Shown: piece by piece, positions 36,549 to 38,113 of the stretch
How the letters are laid out: each line of letters opens with the position of its first letter
How positions within the stretch are numbered: position 1 is the first letter of the stretch
Assembly (NCBI GenBank): GCA_036397555.1
Contig: DASWIS010000024.1
Location: 1-38,113 of the forward strand
Source of the DNA: Candidatus Zixiibacteriota bacterium
Lineage (GTDB): Bacteria > Zixibacteria > MSB-5A5 > WJJR01
Direction of reading: 5' to 3'
Length of the DNA stretch: 38,113 nucleotides
Notes under the pieces: model-generated
The model's input: the letters and a program-made list of their open reading frames with translations, nothing else
Databases searched by the model: none
What the model was told of the DNA's origin: nothing
Made by a program: the position numbers and the translations under genes

Positions 36549-37757
36549 GTGTTCGCCGATTATCCATCGTACCGATCCAATTCAGACATCGCGTTGAATA
36601 AGACGTGGGTCGAAATCGACGCGTCCGTGCTGCGCGCCAACCTGCGCCGCTTGCGGGTCGCGGCCGGGCCGGGCCGTTCGATCATCCTCGTGGTCAAATC
36701 CGACGGATACGGTCACGGCGCCGAGACCGTCGTGCGCATCGCCGCCGAGGAAGGAATCCATCGCTTTGCGGTGGCGAGTGTCGATGAAGGGATCGACCTG
36801 CGGTGCTCGGAGATCGAAGATGACATCCTGCTGTTGCATCCGCCGCTCGAATTCGAAATGCCGGCGATCGCCGAATGGGACCTGATCCCGACGATTTCCC
36901 ATGAAGAAACCGCGCACGCACTTGACGAATGTTTCGATGGCGAACCGCGCGCGGTGCATGTCGAAATCAACACCGGCGTCAGCCGTCTCGGATTCGAATG
37001 GACCGTCGCTGCCGATGCGATCGCGCGAATTGCCTCGCTGCCGAATCTGAAGCTTGGCGGCGTCTTCACCCATTTCCGCAATGGCACGACGGAGGATGCC
37101 GCTATGATCCGTCAGCAAATGGAACGCTTCAACGACGCCACCGGCGAATTGAAGAAGCGCGGTGTCGAATGCGGTCTACGCCACGCGGCGTCGTCGTACC
37201 CGATGGCGTTTCATCCTGATACCTACTGCGAGGCAGTGCGTCCGGGGCTGATCGCCTATGGCGCCATGAATGTCTCCGGCGCGGCCGTGCCGATCCTCAC
37301 GCAGGTCGAGCCGGTGATGAGCGTGCGCACCCGCATCCTCCACATCCGCACGGTCCGGGCCGGGGAGTGGATATCCTATGGCGCGACATTCCAGGCGCCG
37401 CGCGATATTTCGGTCGCTGTGTTGCCCATCGGCTATGGCATGGGATACCACCGCCAAATGTCCAACCGGGCTTGGGTGCTGATCAACGGACACCGCGCGC
37501 CGATTGTCGGCGTCATCGGCATGGACATGACGATCGTCGATCTGTCAGGAGTCGGTGATGTGTCGATTGGCGGGGTCGCCACCGTCCTTGGCCGCGACGG
37601 TCAAGAGACTATCACCGCCGAGGACTTGGCGCGCTGCGCCGGGACGATCCCCTACGAGATCACCTGTGCTTTGGGCAATTCGCTGCCGCGCTGTGTGATG
37701 AATCAAGAGACCGAAAGCCCTGTGACTGTGGAAGTCAAACGCGTCGCAGTGCCCTGA
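36549..37757 (+). CDS. alr: Alanine racemase
   Basis: This 402-residue PLP enzyme makes D-alanine for peptidoglycan. The PLP lysine lies in 'VVKSDGYGHGAE', where most family members have VVKADAYGHG, so two small changes surround the active Lys. Other family blocks are 'VHVEINTGVSRLGFEWTVAA', 'GLRHAASSYPM', 'CEAVRPGLIAYGA', 'GEWISYGATFQA' with the catalytic Tyr, 'LPIGYGMGYHRQMSNRAWVL' and 'VGVIGMDMTIVDLSGVGDVS'. It is cytoplasmic. The GTG start has GGGAGG in front. It runs divergently from the 35-residue peptide gene, with 254 bases between. No cell-wall gene is adjacent. Confidence 0.94.
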   Translation: MFADYPSYRSNSDIALNKTWVEIDASVLRANLRRLRVAAGPGRSIILVVKSDGYGHGAETVVRIAAEEGIHRFAVASVDEGIDLRCSEIEDDILLLHPPLEFEMPAIAEWDLIPTISHEETAHALDECFDGEPRAVHVEINTGVSRLGFEWTVAADAIARIASLPNLKLGGVFTHFRNGTTEDAAMIRQQMERFNDATGELKKRGVECGLRHAASSYPMAFHPDTYCEAVRPGLIAYGAMNVSGAAVPILTQVEPVMSVRTRILHIRTVRAGEWISYGATFQAPRDISVAVLPIGYGMGYHRQMSNRAWVLINGHRAPIVGVIGMDMTIVDLSGVGDVSIGGVATVLGRDGQETITAEDLARCAGTIPYEITCALGNSLPRCVMNQETESPVTVEVKRVAVP

Positions 37758-37941: not shown

Positions 37942-38113
37942 GGGCGTGTTGAAAAAGCCCAATTTGATGTCACCCCGAGCGGAGCGAGGGGTCTCGATGC
38001 GCGAGTGGCCGCCGACAACGCGTTGGAGATTCCTCGCTTCGCTCGGAATGACCCGAATGATTATTTCCATGAAACTCGATTATGTGGGTTCCGATGGGTT
38101 TTTCAACACGCCC
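37942..38113. mobile_element. Fold-back/MITE-like element with nested inverted repeats at the window edge
   Basis: The outer repeat GGGCGTGTTGAAAAAGCCC (37942-37960) is matched, but for one base, by GGGTTTTTCAACACGCCC (38096-38113). Inside lies a second inverted pair: GTCACCCCGAGCGGAGCGAG... (37969-37995) against its imperfect reverse complement at 38026-38052, the CGAGCGAAGCGAGG palindrome. The core has no open frame, so any transposase would act in trans. The element is complete to the last base of the window. Confidence 0.75.

Follow-up and report, generated by a model that had tools for sequence, protein, structure and literature searches.

An IS1182-derived MITE with a REP-like hairpin pair inside and a preference for hairpin tips as insertion sites

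What is the short sequence bounded by inverted repeats at the right edge of the window, and how does it move? The window is the whole stretch of 38,113 bp that was analysed (G000:C24:1-38113), and its host genome is an assembly of 35 contigs and 2,626,775 bases (2.63 Mb). We conclude, with a probability of about 0.9, that the sequence is a non-autonomous MITE with IS1182-family ends, which an IS1182 transposase most likely recognises, mobilises and inserts at hairpin tips, and whose inner REP-like pair was probably captured.

The structure of the element was determined from the window (Table 1). A repeat search revealed outer arms of 18 nt that are 17/18 (94%) complementary at a spacing of 136 nt, in agreement with the outer inverted repeat of 18–19 bases claimed in a sequence-only reading of this DNA. 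The chance expectation for such arm pairs is ~0.006 (38113 positions × 200 spacings × 55/4^18), an estimate that is moot because the element is multi-copy. No ORF of at least 80 aa was present in the ORF list within the 172-bp element, consistent with the further claim that it is gene-less and non-autonomous, and the neighbouring 402-aa ORF is one that we take, from reading its sequence, to be alanine-racemase-like. The same reading had described an inner inverted pair that forms a palindrome. The pair is real, but the single palindrome is not: each inner unit is an imperfect hairpin by itself, and the interior consists of two hairpins in opposite orientation.

Table 1. Positions of the element, its parts and the neighbouring ORF in the window
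Feature	Position	Strand	Basis
MITE, subfamily A, 172 bp, complete copy	37942..38113	+	BLAST matches in own genome
Left terminal inverted repeat, GGGCGTGTTGAAAAAGCC	37942..37959	+	Repeat search; IS1182-family IS on C1 with the same end type
Right terminal inverted repeat, GGGTTTTTCAACACGCCC	38096..38113	-	Repeat search; 18/18 identical to IS left end GGGCGTGTTGAAAAACCC
REP-like hairpin unit 1, GTCACCCCGAGCGGAGCGAGGGGTCTC	37969..37995	+	Sequence; other copies with alternative tip CCCTTCGGG
REP-like hairpin unit 2, GTCATTCCGAGCGAAGCGAGGAATCTC	38026..38052	-	Inverted relative to unit 1; exact 28-base form in many unrelated bacteria
Right-hand spacer	38053..38095	+	Unrelated sequence in its place in subfamily B copies (read by eye)
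Neighbouring ORF, 402 aa, outside the element	36549..37757	+	ORF list; stop 184 bp upstream of the element, same strand

The copy number of the element was then established. BLAST of the 172-bp element returned 26 matches in its own genome, 11 of which, at 85–100% identity, either were near full length or ran into a contig end (beyond the window copy, nine near-full-length matches at 85–98% and one contig-end-cut match at 100%), confirming that the element is multi-copy, as had been supposed from the window alone. Moreover, a pattern built on the pair of terminal inverted repeats recovered ten elements in the genome, the identical ten on either strand, and the control pattern recovered 0. About 18 loci were counted when the halves on contigs C11 and C31 were taken as one copy. 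Reading of the copies showed three subfamilies with common ends: A, to which the window copy belongs; B (L012–L014 and L016–L018), with a right-hand spacer different from that of A; and C, a single copy (L030) whose interior is a different hairpin pair. At the hairpin tips of L007, L009, L010 and L011, GGA or GAA is replaced by CCCTTCGGG. Comparison of L009–L011 with L001 indicated that these tips interchange in both inner hairpins together, in copies that are otherwise similar.

The sequence-only reading had also proposed a search for a transposase with matching ends, and one was found in this genome. Contig C1 begins with an insertion sequence (IS) of ~1.41 kb with the ends GGGCGTGTTGAAAAACCC and GGGTTTTTCAACAGGCCC and a single ORF of 443 aa. 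The encoded protein scored 366 bits with NF033551, the best of ten families and above its cut-off of 270 (E=3.3e-109), and contains the Pfam domains DUF772 and DDE_Tnp_1_6, which identifies it as an IS1182-family transposase. The right end of the MITE and the left end of this IS are identical at 18/18 positions, and reading both sequences showed no likeness beyond the ends. The copy on C1 is the only full-length one in the assembly, with three further left ends cut at the ends of contigs C9, C10 and C13. The shared ends suggest that this IS is the probable mobiliser of the MITE in trans. Like other IS-derived MITEs, which are short, gene-less and multi-copy, show target duplications and have terminal inverted repeats in common with a full IS of the genome, the element is short and non-coding with terminal inverted repeats, occurs in dispersed copies with target duplications and shares its ends with an autonomous element. 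It is thus a MITE.

The insertion sites were examined for target-site duplications and hairpins. Many copies in the own genome have target-site duplications of 4–6 bp, and direct duplications seen at the MITE include ACAAT, GCTTAT, CATATC, CCAGA and CTTGA. Duplications of at least 4 bp were present at 11/18 own insertions, compared with 5.6% for mismatched flank pairs, and at 19 of 40 insertions in relatives, compared with 1.5% for mismatched flanks; the window copy, whose right flank is missing, lies outside this evidence. As the elements start with a run of G, a duplication of 4 bp is not always distinguishable from one of 5 bp. Furthermore, a stem of at least 7 was found at the insertion site in 15/40 insertions in relatives (5.5% for mismatched flanks) and at 1.0% of 5138 contiguous background sites. 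The corresponding value for the own genome was 9/18, in a sample that is not fully independent, with 17% for mismatched (partner-swapped) flanks, a null that is inflated because many copies and flanks come from one palindrome family; the sample from relatives is the better one.

The duplicated letters were compared with the hairpins themselves. At the IS insertion on C9/C1 the duplication CTCTG is the loop of CCCACAG-CTCTG-CTGTGGG, and in relatives the duplication frequently coincides exactly with the loop, as for GAAA in CCCGC-GAAA-GCGGG (L331) and CAAG in CCACCG-CAAG-CGGTGG (L346). Many further copies sit in an intergenic palindrome family with the consensus GAAACCCGGACC-AAGG-TCCGGGCCAC, a target hairpin also given as CCCGGACC-AAGG-TCCGGG, and empty copies of this preferred target palindrome exist as well. 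Insertion therefore occurs preferentially at the tips of intergenic palindromes, and it is usually the loop of the hairpin that is duplicated. Under the mechanism that we propose, the IS1182 transposase, whose gene lies at another site of the genome, would most likely recognise the ends of the MITE and mobilise it. Insertion would favour the tip of a hairpin formed by an extruded intergenic palindrome, presumably recognised as a cruciform, and the loop of 4–5 nt would be duplicated in the process. A separate observation concerns the intergenic palindrome family GAAACCCGGACCAAGGTCCGGGCCAC, which at times forms head-to-head pairs and is a landing site for both the MITE and the IS (L299, at G000:C22:2800-2965; L111; L116).

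Within the same transposase family, IS1272 and TnSha1 also target hairpins, which they remove wholly or partly without any duplication (PMC5678879, PMC4923244). By analogy, the present elements might replace stem-loops, deleting the target hairpin and leaving no duplication, and four copies without a direct duplication (L003 and L006, and in relatives L332 and L210, which resemble them) would agree with this. L003 and L006 are each flanked left and right by one palindrome arm, in inverted orientation. However, two ordinary duplications result when their right flanks are swapped. The flanks thus look reciprocally exchanged, and either recombination (a crossover) between copies of the MITE or an assembly error (a misjoin) in contigs C8 and C35 would explain both cases. 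Two other copies, L007 and L011, lack both a clear duplication and a long stem. In most resolvable copies both hairpin arms are kept and the loop is duplicated. With arms retained and duplications present, stem-loop replacement was rejected as the main mode of insertion and is improbable as an explanation.

The hairpin preference is thus the one known from IS1272 and TnSha1, but IS1272 deletes the stem-loop without duplication, whereas the present elements keep the arms and duplicate a loop of 4–5 bp, and the element was therefore filed as an IS1182-derived MITE. An alternative pathway depicted in PMC5678879 corresponds to this combination of retained arms and a duplicated loop. In addition, some IS1182 members target palindromes according to a review as cited in PMC5678879 and PMC4923244, and a table of PMC3281130 apparently gives a 4-bp duplication for ISPse1, another member of the family.

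The interior of the element bears on a second alternative, in which a RAYT (Y1 transposase) mobilises the unit as a REP/REPIN-like repeat that has its outer ends only incidentally. RAYTs are the presumed movers of REPINs (PMC3116915), and REPINs resemble the interior of the present element in consisting of two short palindromic repeats in inverted orientation. The genome contains four Y1_Tnp (Y1-type transposase) hits above cut-off, and the inner motif stands alone in many bacteria: its exact 28-base form, GTCATTCCGAGCGAAGCGAGGAATCTCC, occurred in 91 stretches from many bacterial phyla, with exact matches in Bacteroidales, Acidobacteria, Chloroflexi, Eggerthellaceae and others (L117–L196). In contrast to REPINs, the pair sits here between IS1182 ends, at which the copies terminate exactly and with duplications, and the core motif was absent within about 1.5 kb of all four Y1_Tnp loci. 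At these hits no RAYT gene was flanked by the motif in the manner of a REPIN, which leaves the RAYT link unsupported and this explanation very improbable. Still less credible is a conserved structured RNA or terminator in place of a mobile element, because the strong folding and the site downstream of a gene are set against a window without any Rfam match and against dispersed copies that bear target duplications and have the ends of the IS.

The IS1182-derived MITE thus encloses a repeat with a distribution of its own. Among 84 exact core-motif matches from other phyla that were read, none (0/84) was enclosed by a pair of IS1182-type ends at distances of up to about 200 bp, which indicates that the inner repeat is independent of such ends. 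Since the REP-like repeat also exists without them, the interior of the MITE was probably captured as an inverted pair between two IS ends. GTCATTCCGAGCGAAGCGAGGAATCTCC contains GCGAAGC, an unusually stable DNA mini-hairpin. A literature search on the inner-motif string and on insertion into loops found nothing relevant. The sequence-only reading had overlooked both that the inner pair belongs to a separate and widespread repeat and that the element favours hairpin tips.

The position of the element at the edge of the window was also accounted for. Contig C24 (38113 bp) ends exactly at base 38113, the last base of the element, and the window ends there because the contig does. The last 141 bases of C24 are the first 141 of contig C31, and 141 is also the overlap length at many other contig joins of the assembly; the C24/C31 overlap is a k-mer-length overlap, which supports the earlier proposal of an assembly break at a multi-copy element. 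Contig C11 also runs into C31, its final 25 bases being the first 25 of C31, and the left flank on C11 and the right flank on C31 together give a clean duplication inside GAAACCCGGACCAAGGTCCGGGCCAC. This duplication suggests that C11 and C31 are probably the true neighbour pair and that the right neighbour of the window copy is absent from the assembly. Across the assembly, 7 of 70 contig ends fall in this IS or this MITE.

Related genomes were searched for the same ends and transposase. IS1182-like transposase matches were obtained in 18 of 58 genomes, own genome included, and TGTTGAAAAA end pairs were found 98–128 bp apart in 24/58 genomes and 129–159 bp apart in 11/58, with almost no control hits at either spacing. 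Many of the copies read in relatives, although not every one, have as their interior two short palindromic repeats in opposite orientation, which are frequently of the GTCAT..GAG..AATCTC type. In one relative, G001, a different MITE (L306, L308 and L310) was observed that has the same IS1182-type ends and an inverted pair of CGTAGGTCCGGCTCTTAGCCGGACC-type repeats as its interior, and that sits at the tips of another palindrome.

The feature adds a new and well-supported case to a known class of elements. It is a MITE derived from IS1182, and its targeting of hairpin tips is a notable property. No description of IS1182-derived MITEs with REP-pair interiors was found in the part of the literature surveyed. 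ISPpu9, which appears in PMC8450116 as an IS inserted in REPs (repetitive extragenic palindromes), is alike in inserting into such palindromes, the likeness noted here being one of target.

The element accounts for the stop of the contig and offers one way for small palindromic repeats to become mobile. With the IS, the MITE, the empty target and the occupied target together in one genome, it provides a clear case in which to study the choice of hairpins by an IS1182-type transposase, and in which to ask whether a single mechanism can lead either to a duplicated loop or to a deleted hairpin. More tentatively, a branch of IS1182 and its MITEs might target the tips of extruded REP-like hairpins, duplicate exactly the loop and repeatedly capture inverted REP pairs as their interior; we regard this wider proposal as possible rather than likely. 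If it is true, IS1182 ends would be a main vehicle that spreads transposase-less palindromic repeats in this class of bacteria, and each MITE would also bring new hairpin targets with it.
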